A stretch of DNA of 64,000 bases from Pseudoalteromonas ulvae UL12. Its GTDB lineage: Bacteria; Pseudomonadota; Gammaproteobacteria; Enterobacterales; Alteromonadaceae. This document shows, piece after piece, positions 1,921 through 19,690 of this stretch. The DNA lies in assembly GCF_014925405.1 (NCBI RefSeq), contig NZ_AQHJ01000035.1, positions 558,001-622,000 of the forward strand. The letters run 5' to 3'. The position numbers and the translations under genes are program-made. Below the pieces are notes generated by a model that worked only from the letters and a program-made list of their open reading frames with translations, was not told the DNA's origin and searched no databases. Position 1 is the first letter of the stretch, and each line of letters opens with the position of its first letter.

Positions 1921-1948
1921 TTTACGTTTACGTTGACCGCTCTATTTA
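1921..1948 (+). promoter_or_regulatory. Candidate sigma-70 promoter of the tyrosine transporter gene
   Basis: TTTACG (1921-1926) and TATTTA (1943-1948) are separated by 16 bases and would start transcription about 20 bases before the GTG start. The match is moderate. The TyrR-like box lies about 45 bases upstream of the -35 element. Confidence 0.3.
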
Positions 1949-1975
1949 GTCGTATGTTGTAACAAGGCGTATTGT

Positions 1976-3181: not shown

Positions 3182-3188
3182 TCAATTT

Positions 3189-3215
3189 GGCAAGTGAGCG
3201 CATTGTTTACTTGCC
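3189..3215 (+). terminator. Terminator after the transporter gene
   Basis: GGCAAGT and ACTTGCC form a 7-bp stem around a 13-base loop and are followed by GCTTTT on the plus strand. It lies between two convergent genes whose stops are 38 bases apart, so it may also slow leftward transcription. Confidence 0.5.
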
Positions 3216-3219
3216 GCTT

Positions 3220-3852
3220 TTAATTGTTGTGAATGATGTGCTGCTCGAATTCTTTTGCACTTTGCAGTACAACTTGTTGCCAAGCTTGTTCAAGAGCTTG
3301 AACTAAGCCGCTATACCCGTCTTGTGTTAAATCGACCGAGACGTTGAAATATTGATTCAGTAGTACCACATTGGCTAAGCCATTGTTGAATTTAATAATT
3401 CGCCATAACCCTGAAATTTCTGCATTGTGTGTGAGGCCACCATTGAACTCAGTGAGTTCCCATTGCAATTCATAATGATGTTGTTGGTTTGAATAGGGCA
3501 ATGCAGAGCGCTTTTTACTGACAAACACATCTGGTAAGGCTGCAATTAATTGCTGCTCGGCACTATTTAACAACATGCCATCTAAAGGTTGATCCCACAA
3601 ATGCGCGCGAGCACTGCGCATTTGGTTAGCGGAATGTTTCATGGCAATGCCACGATTACTGATCGCACCAAAGAGTATTGGATCTGCAAGGACTAAAGCT
3701 GTGGATGCAGGCGCAACAATGGGTTGATTGATCGGCAGGTTTTGAGCAAATTGGTAATATTCGATTTCTGACGAAGGTGAGCTGCAGCCACTTAGTAATA
3801 GCCCGCTGCAAAGAGTGAACAGTAAGTGACGCATAAAACGATGAGCAATCAT
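3220..3852 (-). CDS. pqiC: PqiC, outer-membrane lipoprotein of the Pqi MCE system
   Basis: A 210-residue protein of the ABC-type transport auxiliary lipoprotein family. The N-terminus has a lipoprotein signal peptide with lipobox LLSGC, so the mature protein is a lipid-anchored periplasmic protein. In E. coli PqiC sits in the outer membrane and contacts the PqiB tube. Its ATG overlaps the stop of pqiB in an ATGA arrangement, so translation is coupled. Position as third gene of pqiABC supports the name more than sequence identity does, since this family is poorly conserved. Confidence 0.85.
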   Translation of the reverse strand: MIAHRFMRHLLFTLCSGLLLSGCSSPSSEIEYYQFAQNLPINQPIVAPASTALVLADPILFGAISNRGIAMKHSANQMRSARAHLWDQPLDGMLLNSAEQQLIAALPDVFVSKKRSALPYSNQQHHYELQWELTEFNGGLTHNAEISGLWRIIKFNNGLANVVLLNQYFNVSVDLTQDGYSGLVQALEQAWQQVVLQSAKEFEQHIIHNN

Positions 3853-5507
3853 TGCTTACTCCTTGGTTGTAGGTCTTCGGGGGCATTTTTATCAAAAATC
3901 AGCATATTCGGTTGCTCGTTCAGTGACTGGGTGAGAGGCTGAAGTTGTTCAGTCAATTTCTTTAATTCTTCAATGGTGCTATTCAAATCGTGATACATAG
4001 GCGAACCTTGTTGGTAATCGGCCATTGTTTTAGCAAATTGCTTCATGGTGAGATCAAATTGAGTCATAGAAGTCGACACTTTATCTAGGCTGGTGGCAAA
4101 TTCAGCAGGAATACTTTGGGTTTGCTGAGTGTTGATAAAAGCGCGCATATCGGTTGCCAGTTGTTGATATTCATTCATGGCACTATTGAGTTGGATAAGT
4201 GATTGCTCAACATTGAGTTTATTAATTTTTGCTAATGTTTCTGACACTTGATTCGTTAGCACTGATAAGCCACTTGAAACACTCGGAAATACTTGATAAT
4301 TACCTAGGTTTCTCACTTGATAAGGATCTGGATCAGGATAGAAATCTAAATCTACATACACAGCACCTGTTAAGAGGTTGCCTGGTTTTAAAGATGCTCT
4401 GAGGCCTCGTTCTATCCATAGCTGCGCATTATTTTGCCAGAAATCTTTGGCGACTTTTGCTTGGTGATAGATACGACGATATTCAATTTTTATCATCACA
4501 GGGACTGCAGTATTATCTGACATGAAATGAGCAGGCGTGCCATCTACGACTAAGATTGCCGGAGTTTCTACAACAGTACCGACTCGGGTACCGCGATATT
4601 CAACAGGTGCCCCGACTTTTAGTCCACGAATCGATTGCTCAAACTCAATGATGTAATAATCATGCTCAAAATAGCGTTGCTCTAACGCGGTTTTGTAATC
4701 TTGACTGAGTGAATAAATATGGCCGTCTTTAACGATTTCTCCGGGCTTTTCGCGTTCTGGCACTGCAAATGAAATCCCACCGTTGAGCATGGTACTTAAC
4801 GAACCGGTTTTAATGCTGATCCCATCAGCATTTAAATCTACCTCGAGACCTGAATGTATCCAAAACACACTATTGAGGGTGGCTAAATTTTGATAAGGGG
4901 CTCTTAAAAAGACACCATAACGCATGGTTTGTTCTTGCCAATCAAATGTAGCGGTTTCAACTTGGCCCACTTTATAGCCTTTATAAAAAACACTGCTGCC
5001 CACATCAATGACTTCTGCATCTCGGCTAAGCAATTTAATGCGGCCGCCTTCAATATCATTAGCAATTAATGGGGGATCTTCGAGCAGTTTGAAATGGTGC
5101 GAAGTGAACTCACTTTCTCCGGGTAAGAACTCAATATACACCCCAGATAAGAGCGTGGTCATTCCAGTAATGCCCGTTTCGTCAATGCGGGGCTTCACTA
5201 ACCATAATTTTGCATCTTCATTGAGTAAATGGACGTAATTTTTATCAATTTCAGCCCGTGCGATGACACCTTTTTGATCGTCAGAAAGGCGAGTGTGACT
5301 AATGATACCAACCTTTACACTGCGGACTTTTATCTCTGTTTTACCATTGGTGATCCCTTCTGCGGAAGGCATTTTAATGAAAATTGTTTCACCTTGGTCC
5401 ACCTGATATTTGTATAACATCCATATGCCAATAAACACAGTGACAAGGGGTAAAAGCCAAACGAATGAAAAACGTTCTGTTTGTTTAATTTCAGCTGATT
5501 GGGTCAT
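3849..5507 (-). CDS. pqiB: PqiB, MCE-domain lipid-transport protein
   Basis: A 552-residue protein with one N-terminal membrane anchor (about residues 13-32) and the rest in the periplasm. Three MCE/MlaD domains follow, at about residues 40-140, 155-250 and 285-395; the first opens with IFIKMPSAEGI and the third with RGLKVGAPVEYRGTRVG. A C-terminal helical region (about 420-530) is rich in Q, L and T. In E. coli, PqiB hexamers stack into a syringe-like tube spanning the periplasm and are thought to move phospholipids. It overlaps pqiA by 17 bases and pqiC by 4, so all three are one operon. Confidence 0.93.
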   Translation of the reverse strand: MTQSAEIKQTERFSFVWLLPLVTVFIGIWMLYKYQVDQGETIFIKMPSAEGITNGKTEIKVRSVKVGIISHTRLSDDQKGVIARAEIDKNYVHLLNEDAKLWLVKPRIDETGITGMTTLLSGVYIEFLPGESEFTSHHFKLLEDPPLIANDIEGGRIKLLSRDAEVIDVGSSVFYKGYKVGQVETATFDWQEQTMRYGVFLRAPYQNLATLNSVFWIHSGLEVDLNADGISIKTGSLSTMLNGGISFAVPEREKPGEIVKDGHIYSLSQDYKTALEQRYFEHDYYIIEFEQSIRGLKVGAPVEYRGTRVGTVVETPAILVVDGTPAHFMSDNTAVPVMIKIEYRRIYHQAKVAKDFWQNNAQLWIERGLRASLKPGNLLTGAVYVDLDFYPDPDPYQVRNLGNYQVFPSVSSGLSVLTNQVSETLAKINKLNVEQSLIQLNSAMNEYQQLATDMRAFINTQQTQSIPAEFATSLDKVSTSMTQFDLTMKQFAKTMADYQQGSPMYHDLNSTIEELKKLTEQLQPLTQSLNEQPNMLIFDKNAPEDLQPRSKQ

Positions 5508-6723
5508 TGCGTTCCTTTGTTTGCGAATCCCATATTAAACGAGGATCAAATGCATGCGCTGCAAGCATTGATGTGATCACCATGGCACAAAAGAATAATG
5601 CACCACTGCCAGGTGTGATTGACATTAAATTGCCTAATTGAACCAGCGCAACCAAAATAATGACCACAAACACATCCAACATTGACCATTTGCCTATGAA
5701 TTCCGTCACTTGATACAGCCTAGTGGCTTGTTTGTGGTTATAGTGCTCTCGGTAAGAGACATGAAAACATAAGCTGGCTAAAACAATCATTTTTGCAATT
5801 GGGACTATAACACTTGCGATGAAAATGATGATAGCAATTGGATATGATTCTATTTTCCACAAAATAATAATGCCACCGATTATGGTGGATGGCTCGTCTT
5901 GACCCAACACGACAGTGTGCATAATCGGAAAAAAGTTCGCTGGAATATACAGTAATAATGAGGTCAGTAGAAAGGCCATCACTCGTTGTATTGATTGAGG
6001 ATTACGAAAATGCATTTTACTGTGGCAGCGAGGGCAAATACTGAGTGAGCTCAGTTGCTGGCAAACATGGCATGCTTTGAGTTGTTGATCAATGGCTCTG
6101 GGGACGTTAATTGCTGAAATGGGGGTTGATGCCTCTATTTGTTGCCACAAGAGTGGGTAGTTGACTCTGCGCAGACACGCTAAATATAAAATGACAAAAA
6201 GACAAAATGACCAAAAACTCAAGCCAAAACTGATTTGCGCCATTGCCATGATTTTGACCATGCTGATCAGCACACCAATCAAAAAAATCTCTGACATCAC
6301 CCAAGGTACTAGGGTGATATTTGTTTTTAATATCCGGCGGCTATACGATTTTGGCAGAGCCTGCAACAATCCCATATGCATCAGGATATGGCTTATTAAC
6401 ACAAATAATGGCAGCAAAATGATGCATAAATCAAGCAAGGCTCCCAATAACGGTGTGTGGTAATTGAATAAAATTTTTGCAGCATCGAGCAGGGTAATGG
6501 TTTGAGTGAGCCCTTGATTACTAAAAGAGATAAATGGATAAAACAAAGAACTTAACAGCATGATTAATGCACTGAGCGCAAACGCTATCACTGTAGTATT
6601 TTGGTGAAAATTACCACGTGATACTTGATAGCCACAATGGGGGCAATGAGCACGTTGATTGACAGACAGCGGGGCCAATTCAATTAATAAATCACATTGT
6701 GGACAAGCAATTTGCTGTTCCAT
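5491..6723 (-). CDS. pqiA: PqiA, inner-membrane partner of PqiB
   Basis: A 410-residue integral membrane protein made of two homologous halves, each with a zinc-ribbon-like CxxC pair followed by about four membrane segments. The first half has CPQC at residues 7-10 and CPHC at 27-30; the second has CHVC and CPRC near 218-235. PqiA is the inner-membrane component of the Pqi envelope lipid-transport system, named for paraquat induction in E. coli. No SoxS-type site was identified here. The gene leads the pqiABC operon and has its own candidate promoter. Confidence 0.93.
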   Translation of the reverse strand: MEQQIACPQCDLLIELAPLSVNQRAHCPHCGYQVSRGNFHQNTTVIAFALSALIMLLSSLFYPFISFSNQGLTQTITLLDAAKILFNYHTPLLGALLDLCIILLPLFVLISHILMHMGLLQALPKSYSRRILKTNITLVPWVMSEIFLIGVLISMVKIMAMAQISFGLSFWSFCLFVILYLACLRRVNYPLLWQQIEASTPISAINVPRAIDQQLKACHVCQQLSSLSICPRCHSKMHFRNPQSIQRVMAFLLTSLLLYIPANFFPIMHTVVLGQDEPSTIIGGIIILWKIESYPIAIIIFIASVIVPIAKMIVLASLCFHVSYREHYNHKQATRLYQVTEFIGKWSMLDVFVVIILVALVQLGNLMSITPGSGALFFCAMVITSMLAAHAFDPRLIWDSQTKERNDPIS

Positions 6724-6827: not shown

Positions 6828-7307
6828 TTAACGTAAAAAATGGGAGATCCGCTTGAGTAAGCGCGATGAACGCGATGATTCTTTACATTCAAAACTGGCT
6901 CGCTTAGTGACATGCAGCTGAGCTGTTTGGTTTTTTAATAGTAAAATTTTATTGTTGCGTTGCCAAAGTTGCTGAATGACATACTCGCCACTGATCCCTT
7001 GACCACTTAAAGTGATATCGACATATTTTAGATTAACATCGCCAAGTGTTAAGCGCACTTCACCATGAAATTGCGCTTTACGATCCTCTAGAGCGTTCGC
7101 GCTGATGATCACCACGTCTCCTGGCATTGCGTCATCAGACAATAAGAAATGAAATACAAACTGGTTAGCTTGATCAACGTGATAGCTTTTACGCTGGTAA
7201 TCAAGAGTCAGCAAAAATGGGTCGTCTTTTTGGCAGTCAAATGCTTTGCCCTGACAATGGGCCACTGCAGGTAAATGTTGTTCTGAAAAACCAATATAAC
7301 GAGTCAC
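6828..7307 (-). CDS. Hypothetical cytoplasmic protein, 159 residues
   Basis: I do not recognise this protein. It has no signal peptide or membrane segment. The central part (about residues 45-110) alternates polar and hydrophobic residues as in a beta-sandwich, including VFHFLLSDDAMPGDVVIIS. The C-terminus is basic and serine-rich (SSRSSRLLKRISHFLR). It contains three cysteines, two of them near the N-terminus. It lies upstream of pqiA in the same direction, with a 104-base gap containing the pqi promoter, so it is probably a separate unit. The ATG at 7307 is the only good start. Confidence 0.65.
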   Translation of the reverse strand: MTRYIGFSEQHLPAVAHCQGKAFDCQKDDPFLLTLDYQRKSYHVDQANQFVFHFLLSDDAMPGDVVIISANALEDRKAQFHGEVRLTLGDVNLKYVDITLSGQGISGEYVIQQLWQRNNKILLLKNQTAQLHVTKRASFECKESSRSSRLLKRISHFLR

Positions 7308-7553: not shown

Positions 7554-8765
7554 ATGACAGTGTTACGACATTTTTTTTACCGTTTATACCATGCAGGGTT
7601 ACGATTATTTGTACGTGTTTATCCTTTTCCAAAACCCTTACTTATGCATGGACATGGCGCGTTTGAGCAATGGCGCGAGTATTTAACACACCATCAATAC
7701 CGACAAGTGTTAGTTATTACTGATGCGACCTTATATAAATTGGGCGTGATTAATCCTGTTTGTGATTTATTAGATGAGCTAAATATTGCTTATCATGTTT
7801 ATAGTGATGTTGAACCTAATCCGAGTATTGAGACAATTGAGTCAGGTGTGACTGTGTATAGGCAACATCACTGCGAGGCGTTGATTGCCATAGGTGGAGG
7901 CTCAGTGATTGACTGTGCAAAACTGATTGGTGCTCGAGCGGTTAAACCTCAGCAATCATTATTAAAAATGAAAGGATTATTTAAGATCCTTAAGGCCTTG
8001 CCACCTTTGCATGCACTTCCGACGACCGCGGGAACTGGCTCAGAAACAACCGTTGCGGCTGTCTTTACTGATCCAAGTACACATCAAAAGTATGCAGTAT
8101 CAGATTTATGTTTGATGCCAAAAATAGCGGTGTTATTACCTGAACTCACCACGCAATTGCCTGCATCATTGACGGCAACCACAGCCATGGATGCGTTAAC
8201 ACATGCAATTGAAGCTTATATTGGGATCAACGGCTTGGCATTTAGCGATGAGCGGGCGTTGAGTGCCTGCGAGATGATTTTTGCTCATTTACCATTGTGT
8301 ATGGCAAACCTCAAAGAGCGTGAACATCGAGAACAATTGTTGCTCGCCTCTTTTTATGCTGGCGAAGCATTTACACGAACATCAGTCGGTTACGTTCACG
8401 CATTTGCTCATAATTTAGGTGCAAAATATGGATTGGCGCATGGTTTTGCCAATGCAGTGATTTTACCGCATATTTTGCGTTGGTATGGAGCAAGCATTCA
8501 CCCTAAAGTGGCTGATATTGCCTATCGAAGTGGTCTTAGTGAGTCAACTATGTCCATTGAACAAGCCGCTGAAAGTGTGATTTTGCGCATCGAATCGCTC
8601 AATCGCAGTATGGATATACCCGCAGGGTTCCCGCAAATAGCATCAAGTGATATACCTATGTTGGCAAAATTAATATTAGCGGAGGCTCATCCAGATTACC
8701 CTGTGCCTCAATTTATGAAGATCAGTGAATGTGAAGCGTTACTCAAACAATTAATGAACGGTTAA
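7554..8765 (+). CDS. Iron-containing alcohol dehydrogenase
   Basis: A 403-residue group III alcohol dehydrogenase: an N-terminal Rossmann-like NAD(P) domain and a C-terminal helical metal domain. The nucleotide-binding GGGSVIDCAK lies near residue 120 and PTTAGTGSETT near 165. The metal region shows MDALTHAIEAY, HAFAHNLG and HGFANAVILPH, which supply the Asp and His ligands. Members oxidise alcohols or reduce aldehydes. The N-terminal 30 residues (FFYRLYHAGLRLFVRVYPFP) are an amphipathic extension seen in a subset of this family. AGG is found seven bases before the ATG. Monocistronic; convergent with the cyclase gene. Substrate unknown. Confidence 0.92.
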   Translation: MTVLRHFFYRLYHAGLRLFVRVYPFPKPLLMHGHGAFEQWREYLTHHQYRQVLVITDATLYKLGVINPVCDLLDELNIAYHVYSDVEPNPSIETIESGVTVYRQHHCEALIAIGGGSVIDCAKLIGARAVKPQQSLLKMKGLFKILKALPPLHALPTTAGTGSETTVAAVFTDPSTHQKYAVSDLCLMPKIAVLLPELTTQLPASLTATTAMDALTHAIEAYIGINGLAFSDERALSACEMIFAHLPLCMANLKEREHREQLLLASFYAGEAFTRTSVGYVHAFAHNLGAKYGLAHGFANAVILPHILRWYGASIHPKVADIAYRSGLSESTMSIEQAAESVILRIESLNRSMDIPAGFPQIASSDIPMLAKLILAEAHPDYPVPQFMKISECEALLKQLMNG

Positions 8766-8777
8766 ACAAACCCGTGG

Positions 8778-10988
8778 CTATTTACTGGTATGCGTGAATG
8801 AGCCATCCCAAGGGGATTGGGGCGGGGAAGTGTGATAAAGCGCGCAGCGCTCGAGATATATTTCGGTTAATTTGCAAGGGTGCGTTTGATGTAAATTAGC
8901 AAATGCTTGTTGTGCATCTGAAAATTGCATTTGCCAGTATAACTCAAGAGCTGCTTCGTATTTGGCGATATGTTCAGCCCATAGGCGTTCAAGTTGTGTT
9001 ATTTCGCCTAAAGGCTCAAAGATGGTCACGGGGAGATCTTTTCCTTTCACTTTGACTTTATCGACCGTGCGATATAAGAACTGCGGCGCGGCAAGTTTAG
9101 TTGATTCGCTGACGATAATATCCACGCCATACACTTTTGTGATCCCCTCTAAACGAGATCCTAAATTCACTGTGTCACCCATGACTGTATAAGCAATACG
9201 AAATTCACTGCCCATATTGCCGACGCTCATTTCGCCGCTGGCGATCCCGATACCAACCTTAATTTCAGGCCAGTCCTTTGCTGCAAACTCTCGGGTCAAT
9301 TTATCCATTTGCTGGATAATGTCTAAAGCAGCATAAATCGCATGGGCAGCATGTTCTTCATCGTTAATCGGTGCGCCCCAAAACGCCATCACGGCATCGC
9401 CCATGTATTTATCTATGGTGCCTTTTTGCTGATGGATACTATGGGTAATGGGCGTTAGAAACTCATTCATTAAAATGGTGAGTTCAGTTGGTGTCATTTT
9501 TTCTGACATGTTGGTGAAGTTGCGCACATCTGTGAACAACACACTCATAATGCGGTTTTCACCGGCTAATGACATTTCAGCTTGATTGGTGTCAAAGTCG
9601 GTGACTAACTCATGTGGAATGTATTGGCTGAAAACTTTGGATAGTCGGCGTTTATTTTTTTGTTCAACAAAAAAATTATAATTTAAGTGTAAGAATCCAC
9701 TGATCAAAATAAAAAACAGCGGCGGTGCGAGGGTTAAAATTAAATTCTGCCAGTGCCAAAAATAAAAATTGAGTGTGGTATATAAAGCACTGAGCACGAT
9801 TAAAAAGACCGCGGCTCCCACTGATTGTAAAAAAGGGAAGATAAAGGTCATCAGTAATCCAAGAACAAATAAACTCAGTAATTCGATCGCCAAGCGGTAA
9901 CCCGGCGCGTGCTTAAAGCGCTGTTCAAGAATCGCAGAAACAATGTTGGCATGTACTTCAACGCCAATATAGCTTTTACCCACAGGCGTAGAACGTAAAT
10001 CAAGTAAACCAGATGCGCTGGTGCCAAGTAAGGCTATTTTGTTGTTGAGTTGTTCAAGAGGGACTGAGTGGGTGATGACATCAGTTGCTGAAATATAAGC
10101 AAAACTGCCTTGGCGGCCCCTAAAAGGCACATAAATTGAACCTGTTTGGTCGACCGGAATGCGGTAATCGCCGAGTTTAATGTATTCAAGGGAGCGAGTT
10201 GGTGAGTGGATGTTACCTGAAAGTTGAAATTCGATGGAGGGTAAGTCCAAGCTTACACGGGCTAATTCAAAGGCCAGTGATGGGTAAATTCCCTCTTCAA
10301 AATATTGAATTAGAGGAACTTTTCTTAATGTTTCGTCATCGCGAATGTAGTCGAAGAAGCCGCCATAACCAGTTGCCTGTTGTAAAATAGGTAAATTACC
10401 AGCGTAGCCTGTGCCGTGATATAGATCTGATTTTACATCTTTTAGTAAGTCAATTGGCGCTAATGGTATTGGCAATTCGCCATTTTGTTGTTGGTCATAA
10501 GTGCTATGCTTGAAAACAAAGCCCATTACGGCATCACGAGCAATCAAGGCTTCACTAAATTTTTGATCATTGTCTAAATCAAGCGTTAAATTTTCCAACT
10601 CAGATTGGCTAATAATGCCTTGGTCGAATAAGTACTGTAAGGTACTGAGCGAATTTGTGGAGCTCGCTTCTGCAAATACCGCATCAAAGCCAATACTTCT
10701 AATTTGGTAGTGGTCAAAGAGTGTATTGATAAGGGTGGCTAGTTTATCTCTGGACCAAGGCCATTGACCTTGAGCGGTTAAACTTTTTTCATCAATATCG
10801 ATGATGACTACGCGTTGATCGACACTTTGTTCCATTGTCATCAAAAGCCGAAGATCATATAAATAGTTTTCGACTTTGGTAATGATTGACCAATTCACAT
10901 GGCCACTAGTATGAATCGCTAACATGATGAATACAGATGCTGAAATGACAATGCGTGATAAATATTTTTTGACTGTATCAGCTGTCAC
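8778..10988 (-). CDS. CHASE2-domain adenylate cyclase, class III
   Basis: A 736-residue inner-membrane sensor cyclase. Residues about 13-30 form a membrane anchor, about 35-345 an extracytoplasmic CHASE2 sensor, about 355-440 three membrane segments, and about 465-660 a class III cyclase domain. The cyclase core is intact: metal-binding Asp in LFTDVRNFT and MGDAVMAFW, the Lys of DKYMGDAV and Asp of VMGDTVNLGSRLE that select adenine, and the Asn and Arg of NLGSR. It should therefore make cAMP. Its ATG follows the stop of the large lipoprotein gene directly, so it is the last gene of the 18278-8778 operon. The CHASE2 ligand is unknown. Confidence 0.93.
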   Translation of the reverse strand: MTADTVKKYLSRIVISASVFIMLAIHTSGHVNWSIITKVENYLYDLRLLMTMEQSVDQRVVIIDIDEKSLTAQGQWPWSRDKLATLINTLFDHYQIRSIGFDAVFAEASSTNSLSTLQYLFDQGIISQSELENLTLDLDNDQKFSEALIARDAVMGFVFKHSTYDQQQNGELPIPLAPIDLLKDVKSDLYHGTGYAGNLPILQQATGYGGFFDYIRDDETLRKVPLIQYFEEGIYPSLAFELARVSLDLPSIEFQLSGNIHSPTRSLEYIKLGDYRIPVDQTGSIYVPFRGRQGSFAYISATDVITHSVPLEQLNNKIALLGTSASGLLDLRSTPVGKSYIGVEVHANIVSAILEQRFKHAPGYRLAIELLSLFVLGLLMTFIFPFLQSVGAAVFLIVLSALYTTLNFYFWHWQNLILTLAPPLFFILISGFLHLNYNFFVEQKNKRRLSKVFSQYIPHELVTDFDTNQAEMSLAGENRIMSVLFTDVRNFTNMSEKMTPTELTILMNEFLTPITHSIHQQKGTIDKYMGDAVMAFWGAPINDEEHAAHAIYAALDIIQQMDKLTREFAAKDWPEIKVGIGIASGEMSVGNMGSEFRIAYTVMGDTVNLGSRLEGITKVYGVDIIVSESTKLAAPQFLYRTVDKVKVKGKDLPVTIFEPLGEITQLERLWAEHIAKYEAALELYWQMQFSDAQQAFANLHQTHPCKLTEIYLERCALYHTSPPQSPWDGSFTHTSK

Positions 10989-13900
10989 TTAGTTCATTCC
11001 TGCTTGAACACCGATATTGATATTAGCTTGATGTTTGGGGTCGCGGCGGTACATGGGCCAAGGGCTTGTGGCCAAAGAGTGACCCGTTAGTGAAATAGCA
11101 TATAACTGACCATCTGTAGAGGTGATATACAGTGTATTGTTATAAAATACAGGCGCAGACTTAATGGCATCACCCGTTTTAAATTTCCACTGAACATTAC
11201 CTGATTGTGCGTTTAAGCTATACAAGTAGCCATCTTCAGCCCCAACAATCACTGAGTTGACCACTTCACCATCACTCAATAGCAAGGCGGAACTGGTTAT
11301 GGCACTGCCAAGATTGCTTTGCCAATTTGAGCTATTACCGGCGTTATTGAGGGTATAATTATAAAAGTAACCATTTTGAGTACCAAAATAGATATCGTTA
11401 TCAAAGCCGATTACGATAGGGGCGCTGCTAGTATCTGATAAGGGAATTTGCATTGTTTGGGTGATAAGTCCATCGCTATCTTCAAAATAGGTCACCACCC
11501 CGGTACTGTCGATGAAATAGCCTGCAGAGCCTTCATCTAATAATGAAAGCCCAGACAAAATGGTTGCGCTAGGGGTCATAAATGTTGAGGTAACAATGGG
11601 TGTACTCGATAATTCAATTTTATTTATTACCTGATCACTTGCTGGATAAAGAAGCTGTGCGTTAGCATCAACCACACCCGGTAATGCAGTGATGCCAGCA
11701 GAAAGTGTGTTTGAATAACTGAGATCACCAAGCTGATCAGGTGTGCCGCTTTCGTCAGTCAATATGACGTATGTATTGCTGCTCGAAGACACATACACTT
11801 CATTACTATTAACAAGCGTCACGGGGTTATTCACTGGGTCAGAGGTTGCAAAGCTCCAAACTTTTTCACCTGCAGATGAGAGTTTATAAACAGAGCCATC
11901 TCCAGATCCGACATAAATATTATCTGTATCATCTAGCATTACAGAGCCTTTAATAGCTCCACCGGCTGTGTAAGTCCAATTGGTTGTACCTGCAGGGGCA
12001 ATTGAATAGATTTGGCTGCCATCATTACCAAAAATGATGTTGCCGTTATTATCTATTGCAGGTGAAGAATGAATTGCTTGAGTGGCGTTAAATTGCCAAG
12101 CTAGAATTGGTGAGTAAACAATCACATCAACGGATGAATCTGCCGTGGCCCCATCATCGTCAGTCACTCTTAATTTAAACGTTAATACTTCTCCTGAGCT
12201 ATTACTAGGAATAGTGACTTGAGTTGATAATGCGTTGATATTACTGATCGTAGCGCTCGTACCTGCCGCTTGAGTCCACACTGTACTTGCGATTGTGCCA
12301 TCTGTATCCGAAGCCGTGCCAGACAAAGTGATGATTTGATTGCCAATCGCAGTGGTATCAAACCCAGCATTCGCTATTGGGTTTAAATTGGGTGGTAAAA
12401 TCGTGATGCTAACTGTGTCAGTGCCAATTAACCCTAAATTATCCGTTGCTTTTAGTTGTAACACTATGACTTCATTCGATTCTACAGATGCAGAATTGAT
12501 AGTGGTAATTGCACTGGTAGGAGATGAAAATGTCACGCTAATGTTGCCTGAAAGTTGAGACCACTCATACGAACTAATTGCACCATCATCTGTGGCCGAG
12601 CCAACTAAACTAATCACACGTCCGCCATGAATAGCTTGATCTGGGCCTGCATTGACCGTTGGTGGGGTATTTTGTGCCACCACATTAACAGTGGTTGAGG
12701 CTGTTGAAGTTAAGCCATCATCATCAGTGGCTGATAACTCAAAAGTTAAGGATGTATCTTGGCTCACATTGGGTGCTGTAAAGCTTGCGTTTGGTGTGGT
12801 TTCTCCACTTAAGGAGACTGATGTCCCTGATGTTTGACGCCAGAGGTAGCTGCTGATTTTACCATCAGTATCCGTTACTGTTGCTGATAAACTCGCACTT
12901 TGATTTGCATTTACACTCTGAAAACTATCCAAAATGATGCTCGGTGCCTTATTAGGTGGTTCGACGGTCACGCTGACATTGGCTGATTTGCTTGCGCCGT
13001 CATCATCGGTCGCAGTGAGGGTAAAGCTCAATTGCTGATTAGCACTGACGATGGGAGCGGTAAAACTTGTCGTTGTTTCGGTCGGGCTTGAAAGCACCAC
13101 CGTCGGGCCCGTGTTTTGCGTCCACTGCACAGCGGCGATGGTGCCATCTTGATCGGTTGCATCACCGGATAAGGTGACTGACAAACCTGAATGGATCACT
13201 TGATCACTGCCAGCGCTGACTTGCGGTTCGAGATTTGGTGGTTCGACGGTGATGTTGACTGAGTCAACAGCTGTGGCTCCGATATCATCAGTCACCGTTA
13301 AATTAAATGTCAGCAGTTGGTTAGCAGTAACAATCGGCGCGATAAAGCTTGTGGCAAGTGAGTCAGTGGCCGATAAAGAGACAGATACACCGCCAGTTTG
13401 AATCCAAGATACGGATACGATTTGCCCATCTGCATCAGAGGCTACACCTTGTAAGCTGACTGATGCGTTAGATTCAACCACTTGATCCTCACCAGCAAAC
13501 ACATTCGGTGGAATGATGGGTTTGACTATGATTGAGACATCTGCGCTACTAGAAGCGCCTTCATTATCGGTGACTTGCAAATTAAAGGTTAAATCAGAGA
13601 TAGCAGTCACTGTTGGGGCAATAATTTGTGTACTTAAAGACGATGGAGAAATAATTGCAGCCGCAGGGCCACTCGTTTGCTGCCATATTGTTGAGACAAT
13701 AGAGCCATCACTATCAGAACTCTCGCCCGTAAGAGTCGTAGATTGTTCAGAAAAAATAACCTGAGGTGAGCCTGCTGACACATTGGGAGGAATATTCAAA
13801 GGGGTCACTGTTATTGTGATACTTTGTGTGGTTGAATCGCCGTCATCATCGGTTGCCGTTACATCAAAACTCATGGGTGTATTGGTGGTCACTATGGGTG

Positions 13901-15284
13901 ATGTAAAGCGAATTGTGGCGGAGTCTACACCTTGTAATTCAACATTTGGCCCTGCAGTTTGTTGCCATTGAATGTTTGAAATGGTGCCATCGTTATCGGT
14001 GATTGTGGCTGTAATGGTCGTCGATGTTTGTTCTGTTATTTCAAAGCTATCAGGTAGTGAAATACTCGGCGCGCGGTTACGAGCAATTATCGATACCTCA
14101 ATACTCTCGGATGATATCGCACCTTTGTCATCCACAACACTGACACGTAACGTTGCCTTGGAGTTAGTTAGTACATCAGGAGCAGTGATGGTGAGTTGTT
14201 CAGTATTATTGCCAGCGAATAAAAGCGTAGGCCCAGAGGTTTGACTCCAGTTAATTGCATCAACTGTCCCATCTTGATCTGATACAGTAGCGACAAGAGT
14301 GGCACTTTTGAGGCCTTCGACTTCTAGATCTTGATTGACGCTCACCACAGGGGGGTAATTTGTTATTTGTGGTTGTTGAAGCAACTGTTCATTAATAGTG
14401 ATTGAGGGAGTTTGCGAGAAGTTGTTGCTGTTATTGTTTTGAAAGCGGTTTATTTGCTCATTTAAGCTGATATCTTGTGGCAGTGCTTGCTGTTCACCAT
14501 ATTTGTTTAAATACTCTAATGGCACTCCTTGATACTGACCATCGACAATACCATCCGAAAAATCATGGATAATCGCTTCAATAATAGAGAAATTGGGCTC
14601 TGAAAAACCTAGCTCTAAAGCAAACCGATTGGCTAGGTTTGCCAGCCCACCGAGCACTAATGCGTATTGCATTTGTGTGACTGTTGCAGTGGTTGAAGGC
14701 GTAAGGGTATCAGCTGGGACGGTATCTATGATATTAAATCCAAAAGCATTTGCAGCATTTGTTTGATTCAGTCTTAAGGTCTCAAAAAAATTATTACTGG
14801 TACTTTCTATTTTTGTTTTGGCGATTAACGCAGTTGAGGCGATTGTAATTGCGACTGATGTTTGGTTGGGCAGCAATACCGAAGATAGCCCTTGCTCTGG
14901 TGTGAAGGTGATTTTTCGTTTGAGTGATATATCAGGCTCTTGATCGGCTTCATCAATATAGCTCCCACCAAAGGACTTGATTAAGCGGGGCTGATTACTG
15001 ACAGGGATAGCAAGGGTAAATTCACCCAATTCATTGGTGGTTGTTTCAAAAACGGGGGTAGGATCACTGATATTGCCACCTTCATCGAGGGCGTACACTT
15101 TAATACTTGCATTAATGAGGGCACCTTTAGCAGCGCTTCCTACTACAGTAATAGACGTTGGTTCTACGTGCTGAATAGGTAATTGATTTTGCGACTCGCT
15201 CTGTCCACCACATCCGGTTAGACAGGCAAAAATGACGGTAAGATAACTGAAGTGACGCGTTTTTGTTAAGGTGTGATACCACAT
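10989..15284 (-). CDS. Giant lipoprotein with eight Ig/PKD-like repeats and a PQQ-type beta-propeller
   Basis: A 1431-residue lipoprotein with signal peptide and lipobox LTGC (Cys25). Residues about 45-115 look like a carboxypeptidase-regulatory-like beta domain, and 115-305 a mixed helical region. Eight repeats of about 93 residues fill 308-1055, each opening with a Pro-Pro-type linker such as NIPPNVSAGSPQ and carrying DxDGxIxxxxWxQTSGP and a TDDDGA end (K319L/PKD-like Ig folds). Residues 1065-1431 repeat GSGDGSVYKLSSAG-type blades of a PQQ-like propeller. The Gly-Gly after the Cys gives no inner-membrane retention signal. Third gene of a tight operon. An adhesin or ligand-presenting surface protein is likely, but this is inference. 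Confidence 0.88.
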   Translation of the reverse strand: MWYHTLTKTRHFSYLTVIFACLTGCGGQSESQNQLPIQHVEPTSITVVGSAAKGALINASIKVYALDEGGNISDPTPVFETTTNELGEFTLAIPVSNQPRLIKSFGGSYIDEADQEPDISLKRKITFTPEQGLSSVLLPNQTSVAITIASTALIAKTKIESTSNNFFETLRLNQTNAANAFGFNIIDTVPADTLTPSTTATVTQMQYALVLGGLANLANRFALELGFSEPNFSIIEAIIHDFSDGIVDGQYQGVPLEYLNKYGEQQALPQDISLNEQINRFQNNNSNNFSQTPSITINEQLLQQPQITNYPPVVSVNQDLEVEGLKSATLVATVSDQDGTVDAINWSQTSGPTLLFAGNNTEQLTITAPDVLTNSKATLRVSVVDDKGAISSESIEVSIIARNRAPSISLPDSFEITEQTSTTITATITDNDGTISNIQWQQTAGPNVELQGVDSATIRFTSPIVTTNTPMSFDVTATDDDGDSTTQSITITVTPLNIPPNVSAGSPQVIFSEQSTTLTGESSDSDGSIVSTIWQQTSGPAAAIISPSSLSTQIIAPTVTAISDLTFNLQVTDNEGASSSADVSIIVKPIIPPNVFAGEDQVVESNASVSLQGVASDADGQIVSVSWIQTGGVSVSLSATDSLATSFIAPIVTANQLLTFNLTVTDDIGATAVDSVNITVEPPNLEPQVSAGSDQVIHSGLSVTLSGDATDQDGTIAAVQWTQNTGPTVVLSSPTETTTSFTAPIVSANQQLSFTLTATDDDGASKSANVSVTVEPPNKAPSIILDSFQSVNANQSASLSATVTDTDGKISSYLWRQTSGTSVSLSGETTPNASFTAPNVSQDTSLTFELSATDDDGLTSTASTTVNVVAQNTPPTVNAGPDQAIHGGRVISLVGSATDDGAISSYEWSQLSGNISVTFSSPTSAITTINSASVESNEVIVLQLKATDNLGLIGTDTVSITILPPNLNPIANAGFDTTAIGNQIITLSGTASDTDGTIASTVWTQAAGTSATISNINALSTQVTIPSNSSGEVLTFKLRVTDDDGATADSSVDVIVYSPILAWQFNATQAIHSSPAIDNNGNIIFGNDGSQIYSIAPAGTTNWTYTAGGAIKGSVMLDDTDNIYVGSGDGSVYKLSSAGEKVWSFATSDPVNNPVTLVNSNEVYVSSSSNTYVILTDESGTPDQLGDLSYSNTLSAGITALPGVVDANAQLLYPASDQVINKIELSSTPIVTSTFMTPSATILSGLSLLDEGSAGYFIDSTGVVTYFEDSDGLITQTMQIPLSDTSSAPIVIGFDNDIYFGTQNGYFYNYTLNNAGNSSNWQSNLGSAITSSALLLSDGEVVNSVIVGAEDGYLYSLNAQSGNVQWKFKTGDAIKSAPVFYNNTLYITSTDGQLYAISLTGHSLATSPWPMYRRDPKHQANINIGVQAGMN

Positions 15285-15290
15285 TTGATA

Positions 15291-16931
15291 TTACCTATTT
15301 TTAAACTGCGGATTAGAGAACACCACTGTGCCAGATACAATGTCCTCAGCCGATGGATTCATGATGCTATAGACAAGTCCGGCAGCGGTTGGCAAGTTAT
15401 CGGTTGTTTTGCTAGAACTAAAAAAACCACTAAATTGCCCACTCCCGCCACTAACAGCATCAATTACCACTTGGTCATAAGTGCCACTAAAGGCATTAAA
15501 CCCATTACTAATCGAACCTTGACCAACCGCTCGCCAAACTAAGCCTCTAATCCCAATCAATAATTCGTTGCTCACTGTTTGATTGGTGAAATTAGCAGAA
15601 AATGTAGCATTGCCTAAAATCCCGCGATCGCCATGGTTGTTAGTCGGATCTGTGTTACCAATTAAACTATAGCTAACTTGGCCTGTTTTAGTTAAAGCAA
15701 TACTAGGGTCAAAAGATTCATTGCTGAGCCAATGAATGCTTTGCTGTGTTAAATTTAAATTAGCTCCGTTAATAGTGGCAGTGCCATTGCTCCATCGACC
15801 CCAGCGAAAGCCGGAGACTGCATCGTAACCTACGTTTTTTTGTGAGGCTGTCCCTATTGATAATTGAGCGACTTGCTCTGATAACAAAGTACTAAATTGA
15901 GTTAAATTACCGTTATTATCAAATTGATTGTCTTTAGCATCATTGATCGGTTGGGCAATCGCTTCGTTTGCTAAGAGATTAGAAGTGGCGATAACCGTTT
16001 GGCTGGAAGCGACAATTTCTGGCGCTTCGCCACCGTCTATCGCAACATCATCGCCATTATCGTCCTTTATGACTTTGGTAATAACGATATCGTTTGTATT
16101 TGTTGTAGGGTTATTGGTCGTATCTGTTTCTGCTGCGCTGCTAGGTTTGCTAATAGGAGCCGATATTTGTACTTCATTAGAAACAGAGGCTATTTCAGTG
16201 ACAATTATATCCTCTGTAGACACCTCATCAGATGCGTCTGCTTCGGCCTCTTCTTCGTCTTGGGATTTTTGAGTGGCGGTTGTTTCTCCAAATAAACTAC
16301 TTGGAGGGCCTAACAATTTAACTGGTGCGACAAAACTCGTTTGCACAAAACCCGATTCGCTAGGGTTAAGAAGTAGTTGTCCTGCAGAATTATTGAGGAC
16401 TATAGCGCCTTTACTCACCCCGGCATACAAGCCATTTTTTATTGGCTGATTATTTTTTTGATCCAGTGATAAGCAGTCATCATCACAATAAAGAATGGTG
16501 TAATCAGTGCCGCGTATCCCAATTGTGGCAACGGCCGTTTTTACTTCGTAACCGGATTTATCAGGTCCAGATGCGACAGCCCCTGTGATGGTTCTAAAAC
16601 CACCTTTTAATAAACTCATGCTGCTTTTGGCTTGAGTTGTTGATACTTGGCTTTGCCCTTGTGCAGAGTATTGGTACTGACTAATGGTTAACTGTGAGTT
16701 GGCTCTGATTGACACTCTCGCACCATCAGACATCAGCAGCTGAGCGCGAGATTTATCTCCGGTGATAATGGTGTCACCTTCGTTTACATTATCCCCTTTG
16801 CTGACTTTGATTGTTTGGGCATTTTTAATCTGCACATCCCCAATTGCGAAGAGTACTTTACCCGCATTGGCACTGACTGAATTAACACAACTAAAACAGA
16901 CGATGCAAAGGAAGAAGGCAATCTTATTCAT
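15291..16931 (-). CDS. Secreted FecR-domain protein
   Basis: A 546-residue protein with an N-terminal signal peptide (cleavage near residue 22, after VSA). Residues about 25-150 form a FecR domain with the usual order: KGDNVNEGDTIITGDKSRA, LSDGARVSIRANS-like strands, KGGFRTITG and VKTAVATIGIRGTDY. A small disulfide candidate, YCDDDCLS, follows. About 210-300 is a low-complexity acidic and threonine-rich linker, and 340-546 a beta-rich domain I do not recognise. Unlike true FecR it has no membrane segment, so it is not an anti-sigma factor. Six bases separate it from the lipoprotein gene and nine from the barrel gene. FecR domains are often encoded beside CHASE2 cyclases, as here. Confidence 0.85.
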   Translation of the reverse strand: MNKIAFFLCIVCFSCVNSVSANAGKVLFAIGDVQIKNAQTIKVSKGDNVNEGDTIITGDKSRAQLLMSDGARVSIRANSQLTISQYQYSAQGQSQVSTTQAKSSMSLLKGGFRTITGAVASGPDKSGYEVKTAVATIGIRGTDYTILYCDDDCLSLDQKNNQPIKNGLYAGVSKGAIVLNNSAGQLLLNPSESGFVQTSFVAPVKLLGPPSSLFGETTATQKSQDEEEAEADASDEVSTEDIIVTEIASVSNEVQISAPISKPSSAAETDTTNNPTTNTNDIVITKVIKDDNGDDVAIDGGEAPEIVASSQTVIATSNLLANEAIAQPINDAKDNQFDNNGNLTQFSTLLSEQVAQLSIGTASQKNVGYDAVSGFRWGRWSNGTATINGANLNLTQQSIHWLSNESFDPSIALTKTGQVSYSLIGNTDPTNNHGDRGILGNATFSANFTNQTVSNELLIGIRGLVWRAVGQGSISNGFNAFSGTYDQVVIDAVSGGSGQFSGFFSSSKTTDNLPTAAGLVYSIMNPSAEDIVSGTVVFSNPQFKNR

Positions 16932-16940
16932 AAAAAATCC

Positions 16941-18278
16941 TTACTCAAATGTTTTGCGAACAGAAATACCCAATTCAGCTCGTTTAAATTCATACAAAGA
17001 AACGCTTGATTGATGATCGGTGACTGACAATCGAGCTGTCATTTGCCACTGCTCACCAATAAAGTTTAGCCAAGTCAGGGCTGCTGAGCCGCGATTGCGT
17101 TTATCTTTTCGGACTTCGCCAAAAAAACCGGGCTCTGTATCATAATCGGTGTGATAAGAAGCCAATTCGAGATTCGCTCTGAGTGCGTTAGATACTGGGA
17201 TCCGATAAAACAAGCGTGCACTTACTTTATTATTTGAATAAGGACTATCTGTTTGAGTGGTGTCATCGGTAGCCATTCCGATTGAAAATCCAACAAGTGA
17301 ATTACTTTTGGTTGTTTTAGTTGAAGTTAGCCAAATGGCATAACTCATGGCATCTTGGACACTTAACTCATCCGTAAATTGTTGCTCCGCGACACTTAAA
17401 TGGAGATTAAAGTTAACTGCTGAGCTGGCAGCGAAGTCTATTCCACTGTGTAACTCAAGGGTTTGTTGATTAAAATCATTGTCAATTAAGGTGGCAGAGC
17501 TTCTTAAAAAACCATAAACAGAAAAAGGTTCGAATTTGTGATGAAATTGTCCATCAATACTTAAGTAAGTTAAATCAACATAAGAAGCGGAAGGATTGGC
17601 GCGGTGCCCTGCGTTTGCCGATGCTGCAAATCGAGATTGTGCGGTGATAGGGTGTGAATAATAGGAGCCGGCATTAAAGGATGCATAGCTTGACGCTGTT
17701 TCGATGTTTTTATCGTCTAATTTGAATCCATAAAATAAATCTTGCTCAGTAGATGCATTCGCGTTGGTGTCATATCCCAGCGTCCCTTCGATAAACGTAT
17801 AAAAATGAGGAGTATATTTTTTCGCTTGAAGATTAATATTCATCAAATATTGTTGAATCACAGTTTGTGCTTGTGCTGGTGGGTTTTGTAACAGTAAAAG
17901 CTCAAAATGATGACGGGCGCGTTCATAATTGCCAGTGCTGTAATAGGCCCTCGCTAATGCCATTCTAGCACCAGAAAACATGGCATCCATATCGATAGCT
18001 CGTTGCAATATTTGCACTGCAATATTGGCTTTATCTGATTCTAATGCCGCTAGACCCAGTAAATAATCATAGTGTTCATTGCCAGCATAATTTAATTCAT
18101 AAGGAAGAAGATAAGCATAAAGTTCTGAGAATTTTTTTTGTTTTAATAACAGATTAGCATGCTGTAAGAGCGTATTTCTTGATGGTTGAGCAGGTTGATC
18201 TGCCCAAAGAAGTAATGGGAGCAGCAGAAACGACAAAGCGAAAAAAGCAAAAAAAGGTCGTTGTAGGGTCGTATGCAT
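16941..18278 (-). CDS. TPR plus beta-barrel outer-membrane protein, resembling surface lipoprotein assembly modifiers
   Basis: A 445-residue exported protein: signal peptide (residues 1-26), then TPR-like helices (about 30-150, including ALARAYYSTGNYERARHHFE), then a region of alternating amphipathic strands (about 160-445) typical of an outer-membrane beta-barrel. This order (periplasmic TPRs then a roughly 14-strand C-terminal barrel) is that of the DUF560/Slam family, which helps lipoproteins reach the cell surface. The downstream lipoprotein gene in the same operon is a natural client. The C-terminus ends KTFE rather than in the usual aromatic residue. The Slam assignment rests on architecture and context, not on a search. 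Confidence 0.7.
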   Translation of the reverse strand: MHTTLQRPFFAFFALSFLLLPLLLWADQPAQPSRNTLLQHANLLLKQKKFSELYAYLLPYELNYAGNEHYDYLLGLAALESDKANIAVQILQRAIDMDAMFSGARMALARAYYSTGNYERARHHFELLLLQNPPAQAQTVIQQYLMNINLQAKKYTPHFYTFIEGTLGYDTNANASTEQDLFYGFKLDDKNIETASSYASFNAGSYYSHPITAQSRFAASANAGHRANPSASYVDLTYLSIDGQFHHKFEPFSVYGFLRSSATLIDNDFNQQTLELHSGIDFAASSAVNFNLHLSVAEQQFTDELSVQDAMSYAIWLTSTKTTKSNSLVGFSIGMATDDTTQTDSPYSNNKVSARLFYRIPVSNALRANLELASYHTDYDTEPGFFGEVRKDKRNRGSAALTWLNFIGEQWQMTARLSVTDHQSSVSLYEFKRAELGISVRKTFE

Positions 18279-18364
18279 AGATCAGCCTTTAAAAAATTAA
18301 CCATATAAATGGCTTCTTCATAAGGCTAGTCGACAACGAAAAAAAAGGAATGTTTCGAATGTGT

Positions 18365-18396
18365 ATTTTCGATTAAATTTAGCTATAACCGAAAAT
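18365..18396. promoter_or_regulatory. Inverted repeat upstream of the TPR-barrel operon
   Basis: ATTTTCG and CGAAAAT form 7-bp arms around an 18-base AT-rich centre about 90 bases upstream of the operon's first ATG. The centre could hold a -10 element (TATAGC on the minus strand), but no clean promoter was found. Candidate operator only. Confidence 0.25.
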
Positions 18397-18427
18397 TTAT
18401 CAGCGACTTGAGAAAGTGAGAAGTGCT

Positions 18428-18454
18428 CGCCCTCTAACCTGAAGTAAGAGGGCG
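18428..18454 (-). terminator. Hairpin after the ThrE gene
   Basis: CGCCCTCT and AGAGGGCG make a GC-rich 8-bp stem with an 11-base loop, starting seven bases after the end of the exporter gene. The tail on the minus strand is pyrimidine-rich but not a pure T-run. It probably separates the exporter from the operon that starts at 18278. Confidence 0.5.
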
Positions 18455-18460
18455 GTGGTT

Positions 18461-19690
18461 TTAAAGGATTTTCTTAGGTGGCAGTGCCACGTTGGCAAAA
18501 ATGAGGCCTGCAATTAGCGACATCAGAATCAAAAAGGTTTGTTGGCCAATATGATCGGCACTGACAAAGTTTTGCCCTGAAATCAAAGAATTTAAGCCAA
18601 TATAAATTTTACTACCCGGTACCAGTACAATTAATCCCTGCATAGCCACAATAACCGCAGGCGCATTGGCAATGCGAGTAAATAAGTTGCTATAAACACC
18701 AACCGCAAATGCACCTACAAATACACCTAATGCATAATCAAAGTAAATGGCGCCCCATAAACTTGCGCCGTATGCAATAAAACCGGCTGCGATTGACCAT
18801 ACTATATGTTTGGCTTTGGTTCTAAAAATGACAATTAGACTCGAACATAATATTGCAATTGCGAGCCACGCAGTCCATTTTGGGATAGGCTCAGGTTTTA
18901 TAAACTCGACTTCACCGAATGCCGCTAAGCCGAATGCAACCCCTAAAAAAGCACCAAAATAGAGCTTAAATAGCAACATGAGCGCATCCATGACTCGGGC
19001 TGTACCTGACACCAAATGGCGTGCAGATAATTCAGCCAGACCTAGCGTCAGCGCTAAACCCGGTATAAATACAATAATCGAAGATAACACTACGAGCCGA
19101 ATATTAATTGCCGGATCGATATAGGCTGCAACCGTACAGGCGACAAACGCAGACACAATTGCGACAAGGGGCTCAAGCATATGCGCGACCCGTTTAGAGC
19201 GAGCAGACCACACTACAAACAGATACACCAAAATGCCTATTAATGCAGACCAGAATACATCGTTCCAGCTGGTGCCCATTAACATGGCAAATGCACCCGA
19301 TGACATACTAAAAGCCACACCAATAGTTACTTTATTATGGGGATTGGGCATCTGGTCAATTTCATCAAGGCGCTGATCGGCTTCTTTAAGCGTCAGCAAG
19401 CCTTTGGATAATTGATCAACTAACTCATCAGTGCGTGATAAAGATCCTAAATCGAGGTCGCCAGGATTGACGCGTGCAGCATGGGTGTATTCATCTTCAT
19501 GTCCATCTGTCCAAATGACAAACGTCAGTGCAGTTGGGATGATAATGAATGACGCTTTAAGACCTAAAAAAGTCGTCACATCAGTGAGGTGCGCTTCAAG
19601 ACGGTAGGCAGGCGTACCATATTTATGGAGCATTTTGCCTAGTTTAACTATGAATTTTCTTTTTTCGGTAAATGTCGCAGTTTTCAACAC
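18461..19690 (-). CDS. Threonine/serine exporter, ThrE family
   Basis: A 409-residue inner-membrane protein in the single-chain ThrE form. The N-terminal soluble part (about residues 1-115) carries the family signature GKMLHKYGTPAYRLEAHL and precedes about ten membrane segments split into a larger (DUF1212) and a smaller (DUF3815-like) half. In Corynebacterium ThrE exports threonine and serine by proton exchange; many proteobacterial homologues also export small dipeptides or remain untested. The ATG at 19690 fits the family start. It stands alone, with a hairpin downstream and about 150 bases to the next gene upstream. Confidence 0.9.
   Translation of the reverse strand: MLKTATFTEKRKFIVKLGKMLHKYGTPAYRLEAHLTDVTTFLGLKASFIIIPTALTFVIWTDGHEDEYTHAARVNPGDLDLGSLSRTDELVDQLSKGLLTLKEADQRLDEIDQMPNPHNKVTIGVAFSMSSGAFAMLMGTSWNDVFWSALIGILVYLFVVWSARSKRVAHMLEPLVAIVSAFVACTVAAYIDPAINIRLVVLSSIIVFIPGLALTLGLAELSARHLVSGTARVMDALMLLFKLYFGAFLGVAFGLAAFGEVEFIKPEPIPKWTAWLAIAILCSSLIVIFRTKAKHIVWSIAAGFIAYGASLWGAIYFDYALGVFVGAFAVGVYSNLFTRIANAPAVIVAMQGLIVLVPGSKIYIGLNSLISGQNFVSADHIGQQTFLILMSLIAGLIFANVALPPKKIL

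Follow-up and report, generated by a model that had tools for sequence, protein, structure and literature searches.

A type XI secretion system (T11SS), in which a Slam protein (DUF560/SlipAM) is paired with cargo of the TbpB-barrel type, has already been described (PMC8406197; PMC12282271); seven of its outer-membrane proteins have been verified, all of them from cluster 1, and the cargo of most clusters is untested (PMC12282271). In Campylobacterota, a gene cluster brings together a CHASE2 adenylate cyclase, a FecR outer-membrane protein, a tetratricopeptide repeat (TPR) protein and a phosphodiesterase, with the suggestion that they act in the same pathway (PMC9239204). The BiofilmReg operon combines a LysM-FecR protein with a CHASE2 histidine kinase, and what CHASE2 domains sense is given there as 'not known at this time' (PMC5192318). 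Furthermore, mtxA is followed by a CHASE2 cyclase gene in Magnetospirillum (PMC4439547), and a FecR protein of Sinorhizobium is controlled by cyclic AMP (cAMP) (PMC5498481). What we say of these papers holds for the excerpts on which we draw. Here, we analyse a window of 64,000 nucleotides from Pseudoalteromonas ulvae UL12 (contig NZ_AQHJ01000035.1, positions 558,001 to 622,000), in which four adjoining genes encode a Slam-like barrel protein, a FecR-domain protein, a giant lipoprotein and a CHASE2 class III cyclase (Table 1).

With the T11SS, the locus shares a protein made of TPR and barrel domains and a neighbour with a signal peptide and, as predicted here, a C-terminal 8-strand barrel with a handle; it differs in the N-terminal FecR domain of the putative cargo and in the addition of a CHASE2 cyclase and a large lipoprotein. 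The words 'FecR' and 'cyclase' are absent from the main text of PMC12282271, and 'cyclase', 'CHASE' and 'FecR' from PMC8406197. The Campylobacterota cluster also unites a CHASE2 adenylate cyclase with FecR and TPR proteins, but its section in PMC9239204 makes no link to the T11SS or to a cargo fold and names no giant lipoprotein. BiofilmReg likewise has a FecR protein beside a CHASE2 sensor, although with a kinase and a response regulator instead of the cyclase and with no barrel named in the excerpt (PMC5192318). At the mtxA locus, too, a CHASE2 cyclase gene comes after the gene of an exported protein, whereas 'FecR' is absent from the main text and no barrel was seen in the parts used (PMC4439547). 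Finally, a FecR domain is shared with the FecR/PupR anti-sigma regulators of Fec/Pup signalling; in contrast to these, the window protein has a signal peptide with no transmembrane stretch after it and matches no anti-sigma family in Pfam, and a role as anti-sigma factor was rejected for want of that transmembrane stretch. The preliminary description of this DNA had treated the combination as matching no described system, which was partly wrong: the T11SS and the CHASE2/FecR/TPR/phosphodiesterase cluster are on record. Among the papers listed in a search of the open-access literature, none joins FecR or CHASE2 with T11SS/Slam.

A recurrent operon with a constant barrel-FecR pair

We propose, with a probability of somewhat under 60%, that the four genes form an export-coupled signalling module, in which a T11SS exports the FecR protein as its client and the CHASE2 cyclase reads it. 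They lie at 8778-18278 as minus-strand open reading frames (ORFs) with successive gaps of 9, 6 and 0 bases in the ORF list, exactly as first described, a spacing that suggests co-transcription.

The layout appears to be more than chance because the gene order recurs in other genomes. The barrel protein was used to search 60 related genomes and was matched in 17 of them (E <=0.001). Twenty stretches were fetched from these genomes; 16 contain a barrel gene, which a FecR gene adjoins on the same strand in every case (16/16). Thirteen loci from 12 of 35 same-genus genomes (that of the window not counted) show the full order of barrel, FecR, lipoprotein (1230-2514 aa) and CHASE2 cyclase on one contig (L050, L051, L057-L060 and L062-L068), and a further one is split over contigs (L055/L056). 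The preliminary description had named the failure of the four families to co-occur elsewhere as grounds for giving up the idea of a module, and they do co-occur. At 10 of these 13 loci, lipoprotein and cyclase are separated by an ORF of ~270-280 aa, and one of ~550 aa follows the cyclase; where scanned, the former encodes a metallo-beta-lactamase-fold protein (L058) and the latter a GAF/HD-domain protein (L058, L064). In L058, the GAF/HD and metallo-beta-lactamase-fold genes occupy 1947-3608 and 5808-6653, with similar lengths in L059, L060 and L062-L068, and they may serve cyclic-nucleotide turnover. An initial contig scan with the cyclase alone found no relative.

To look beyond the genus, a profile of 48 barrel homologues was run against 369 genomes of the class and matched in 110 of them (E <=1e-6), many matches being TPR-only fragments. 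We retained 60 loci, that is, the best 65 profile matches (to E 1.9e-50) minus the window's own and four fragments or contig-end pieces (two in G350, one each in G159 and G111); a second, weaker barrel locus in G093 falls outside the set. A FecR gene lies <=600 bp from the barrel gene at 59 of the 60 loci, and at the sole exception (L114) the barrel gene is at a contig end. The association also holds from the other side. When loci were chosen by FecR (the best 80 of 573, from named genomes, six of them also in the barrel-chosen set), a barrel gene was found <=600 bp away at 67 of the 80. It depends on the length of the FecR protein: a barrel adjoins 60/64 complete genes of >=330 aa, three of the four misses starting <=490 bp from a contig end and the fourth being a second copy, compared with 1/10 complete genes of <330 aa and 8/10 genes cut by a contig end. 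The constant pair of the layout is thus barrel and FecR.

Of the 60 barrel-chosen loci, 21 have a CHASE2 cyclase in view, compared with about 0.8 expected by chance, a Poisson figure that is not to be taken literally with related genomes and several loci per genome. It lies upstream or downstream of the pair and in both orientations. At L061 (5389-8995), a response-regulator/GGDEF gene and then a CHASE2 cyclase gene face the barrel-FecR pair. That the four genes are neighbours merely by descent or chance, with no joint function, could explain the same-genus recurrence alone but can hardly be squared with the finding of such loci in 54 genomes across the class sample, where the cyclase takes several orders and orientations, or with its excess over the chance figure.

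Table 1. Features of the four-gene operon in the window.
Feature	Coordinates	Strand	Length, residues and basis
Slam/T11SS-like outer-membrane protein	16941-18278	-	445 aa; signal peptide, TPR domain, 14-strand barrel
TPR domain of barrel protein	17820-18179	-	residues 34-153; Pfam and model
14-strand beta-barrel	16947-17807	-	residues 158-444
FecR-domain protein, predicted T11SS cargo	15291-16931	-	546 aa
FecR domain	16317-16868	-	about residues 22-205
Linker, mostly of low model confidence	16002-16316	-	about residues 206-310; pLDDT <50 at 216-287 and 299-308
Cargo-like C-terminal part (handle strands and 8-strand barrel)	15309-16001	-	about residues 311-541
Giant lipoprotein	10989-15284	-	1431 aa; lipobox LTGC by inspection
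Conserved N-terminal domain gN	14355-15209	-	residues 26-310
PKD/Ig-like repeat stalk	12105-14354	-	about residues 311-1060; PF22352, 8 stretches
Beta-propeller head	11025-12104	-	about residues 1061-1420; PF13360, PF13570 and BamB-type matches
CHASE2 class III cyclase	8778-10988	-	736 aa
CHASE2 domain	9855-10907	-	residues 28-378; flanked by transmembrane-like stretches at 10-28 and 364-432
Cyclase catalytic domain	9033-9548	-	residues 481-652; Pfam

Translocator, predicted cargo and cyclase

TPR is the sole family that Pfam matches in the barrel protein (TPR_19, 6.8e-08), and its model consists of TPR-type helices and 14 strands (mean predicted local distance difference test score, pLDDT, 92.4), so that the label TPR/beta-barrel holds. 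Its description as Slam-like is supported through its relatives: PF04575 (SlipAM/DUF560) is matched by 40 of the 48 members of the full-length barrel alignment (E <=0.01), the closest relative, L050, reaching 17.5 bits under a cut-off of 22, and the Slam-specific TPR model PF24575 by 30 of the 48, with no match in the window protein. Searched against the sequences of solved structures, the barrel profile had TPR proteins among the best 60 of 80 matches; no Slam chain was among the best 50 structural matches of the model, which has no bearing either way. Judged by the families of its relatives, the barrel protein is a putative member of the Slam/T11SS group, and it would move cargo across the outer membrane.

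The FecR protein (FecR PF04773, 1.3e-12) has a signal peptide by inspection, residues 1-19 alone passing the hydropathy scan, and no lipobox, in agreement with the earlier view that it is exported from the cytoplasm. Its C-terminal ~230 residues are conserved within its family. In the structural model (overall confidence 75.3), the strands at 418-539 reach pLDDT ~90 or more in most blocks. When the model was compared with the PDB, the best 50 rows contained 3 FecR-type anti-sigma chains; the remaining 47, which cover about residues 305-545, are chains of TbpB, LbpB, NHBA, fHbp, HpuA, HphA or hemophilin, or surface-lipoprotein chains with similar titles. Slam-type proteins are the translocators of TbpB, LbpB, fHbp, HpuA and hemophilins. 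The C-terminal half of the FecR protein is thus predicted to have a TbpB-type cargo fold, an 8-strand barrel with a handle. Among ten other FecR partners, one matched PF01298 (TbpB_B_D) above the cut-off (L084) and two below it. A loose count of a C-terminal motif in FecR proteins (48/143) was unspecific and was discarded.

Residues of about 31-102 of the FecR protein (16625-16841) resemble the retention module of LapA-type adhesins. The retention domain model NF033682 scored 27.6 bits, under its cut-off of 50; the FecR profile matched 5ix9 at E 0.0077 among solved structures, with two weak matches and nothing else, and the FecR model fits 5ix9 with a root-mean-square deviation of 1.1 across 61 columns.

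The fourth protein is a CHASE2 cyclase, as had been noted (CHASE2 6e-52, Guanylate_cyc 1e-21 in Pfam). It has the make-up of a CHASE2 adenylate cyclase, with a CHASE2 domain flanked by transmembrane stretches and then a class III cyclase domain. By inspection, the catalytic domain contains FTD, DKYMGD and MGDTVN...R, which we take to be the catalytic and adenine-type residues of an active adenylate cyclase; because these residues are present, its product is likely to be cAMP.

Proposed mechanism

A translocator and a client with a signalling domain, encoded beside a cyclase with a periplasm-facing sensor, suggest that the client's export or surface binding may be reported inwards. The barrel would act as the T11SS (Slam-type) outer-membrane translocator and would have the neighbouring FecR protein as its dedicated client, which it would recognise by the handle and 8-strand barrel of the C-terminal half and carry, in whole or in part, to the cell surface. 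FecR domains of this kind act in the periplasm in cell-surface signalling; here, the periplasmic CHASE2 domain would read the FecR domain, and cAMP would be set according to export state or surface binding. The giant lipoprotein would be an accessory receptor at the surface or outer membrane, in which gN would sit beside the lipid anchor and be followed by the repeat stalk and a head that can be exchanged.

Several observations weigh against this proposal. No CHASE2 cyclase is in view at 39 of the 60 barrel loci, several of them on short contigs, and the window barrel protein itself has no PF04575 match at E <=0.1. As for the cargo fold, the Foldseek E-values for TbpB are modest (best 2.9e-05), and an 8-strand barrel is a common shape, lipocalins and BFA1 being among the weaker Foldseek matches. 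PF01298 is matched by 0/42 members of the FecR alignment at E <=1 and is unmatched in 7 of the 10 other FecR proteins tried. Likewise, of the partner FecR proteins at 59 class loci, only 24 match a profile of the window-type C-terminal part, as do only 2 of those at 16 loci of the relatives. Finally, the complete FecR partner is as short as 198-314 aa at 6 of 56 class loci (one of these genes ends near a contig end), which leaves hardly any space, or none, for a cargo domain.

Were the FecR protein a client of the T11SS and read by CHASE2, the questions of CHASE2 input and of T11SS cargo could both be tested in one operon. CHASE2 cyclases would gain a signalling input, and environmental T11SS a class of cargo that sequence searches for TbpB barrels miss; export to the surface may then be linked to signalling inside the cell.

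Alternative explanations

A tentative variant, which we regard as possible but rather improbable, has secretion arrested so that barrel and FecR together form a receptor spanning the outer membrane, with the secretion system itself as signal receptor. The cargo part would stand outside and the FecR domain, folded in the periplasm, would serve as the stop; the ~100-residue linker of low model confidence would span the pore, and CHASE2 would read the FecR end, leading to cAMP. This idea draws on the disordered linker and on the resemblance between the FecR domain and the retention domain of large adhesins (LapA/antifreeze adhesin).

It is also conceivable, though doubtful, that FecR and CHASE2 are a periplasmic sensing pair and that the barrel exports nothing, serving FecR only as anchor or sensor in the outer membrane. 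FecR/CHASE2 pairs without this barrel have been published, as in the LysM-FecR protein with a CHASE2 kinase (PMC5192318, in the part used), and locus L069 (2621-7497) has a response regulator, a LysM-FecR protein and a CHASE2 histidine kinase in a row, as in BiofilmReg; the absence of a lipobox from the FecR protein would fit as well. Against this, long FecR proteins are strictly tied to the barrel, and the C-terminal half of FecR has, in the model, a cargo-type fold.

The preliminary description had cast the giant lipoprotein as the protein flipped to the surface by the barrel, with FecR as periplasmic go-between. A lipoprotein does lie between FecR and cyclase in the 12 same-genus genomes, lipoproteins with gN directly follow FecR at 23 distinct loci, and one barrel could serve two clients. 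However, gN occurs at only 5 of the 60 barrel-chosen loci, against 59 for FecR with its modelled cargo fold, and Pfam shows no cargo-like fold among the lipoprotein domains. We dropped the lipoprotein as sole first-choice client on these counts and consider this role unlikely; being constant beside the barrel and matching solved T11SS-type cargo in its C-terminal half, FecR is the likelier client, as judged from gene neighbourhoods and a structural model.

The giant lipoprotein

The third protein is a lipoprotein, as stated earlier, its start reading ...IFACLTGC. Pfam places K319L-like PKD repeats (2.8e-104) in the stalk and, in the head, PQQ_2 (1.3e-15) and Beta-prop_ACSF4 (1.2e-36, under its cut-off). 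The gN domain of the window protein falls in no Pfam family; CarboxypepD_reg is matched in 9 of 21 gN members (best 9.3e-05), the window copy not being one of them, and a sequence search of gN against solved structures returned nothing under 0.45.

We found gN in 25 ORFs, directly after FecR on the same strand with gaps of -3 to 274 bp, and 23 of the 25 have a lipobox pattern; carriers include the window, L050, L071, L072, L075, L099, L119 and L130. Behind gN, heads and stalks are exchangeable: PQQ-type propeller, FG-GAP repeats, right-handed beta-helix or Ig-type repeats. Within the genus, the lipoproteins also differ, with PKD repeats and a PQQ-type propeller in the window and L050 and Ig/cadherin-type repeats in L051 and L058, the other two scanned; L051 also has a DUF5122 propeller match, L058 a weak propeller match only. 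When loci were chosen by gN, 8 of the 11 strong matches adjoined FecR, 2 started at a contig end and 1 (G097:C166) had neither barrel nor FecR in view, as was the case for two weaker matches in G299.

Genomic surroundings

Promoter-like sites (22 in 8600-18700, shuffle mean 24.5) and terminator-like sites (9 versus 8.1 in shuffles) are at shuffle level around the operon, and CRP-type sites with <=2 mismatches number 37 in the whole window where 37.0 are expected, which is uninformative about the operon. The closest named relatives of the operon proteins are from Pseudoalteromonas (P. tunicata, P. denitrificans, P. piratica), and the operon is also present in P. denitrificans DSM 6059 (L131). 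The operon is flanked by genes for a ThrE-type exporter and an iron alcohol dehydrogenase (Pfam); between the latter and the genes at 3849-6723 lies a 159-aa ORF (6828-7307) with no Pfam match at E <=0.1. In the host genome of 4.74 Mb, the barrel and FecR families have one match each, both within the operon, and a second CHASE2 gene lies outside the window (G000:C34:170306-171226, in a frame of 631 aa).

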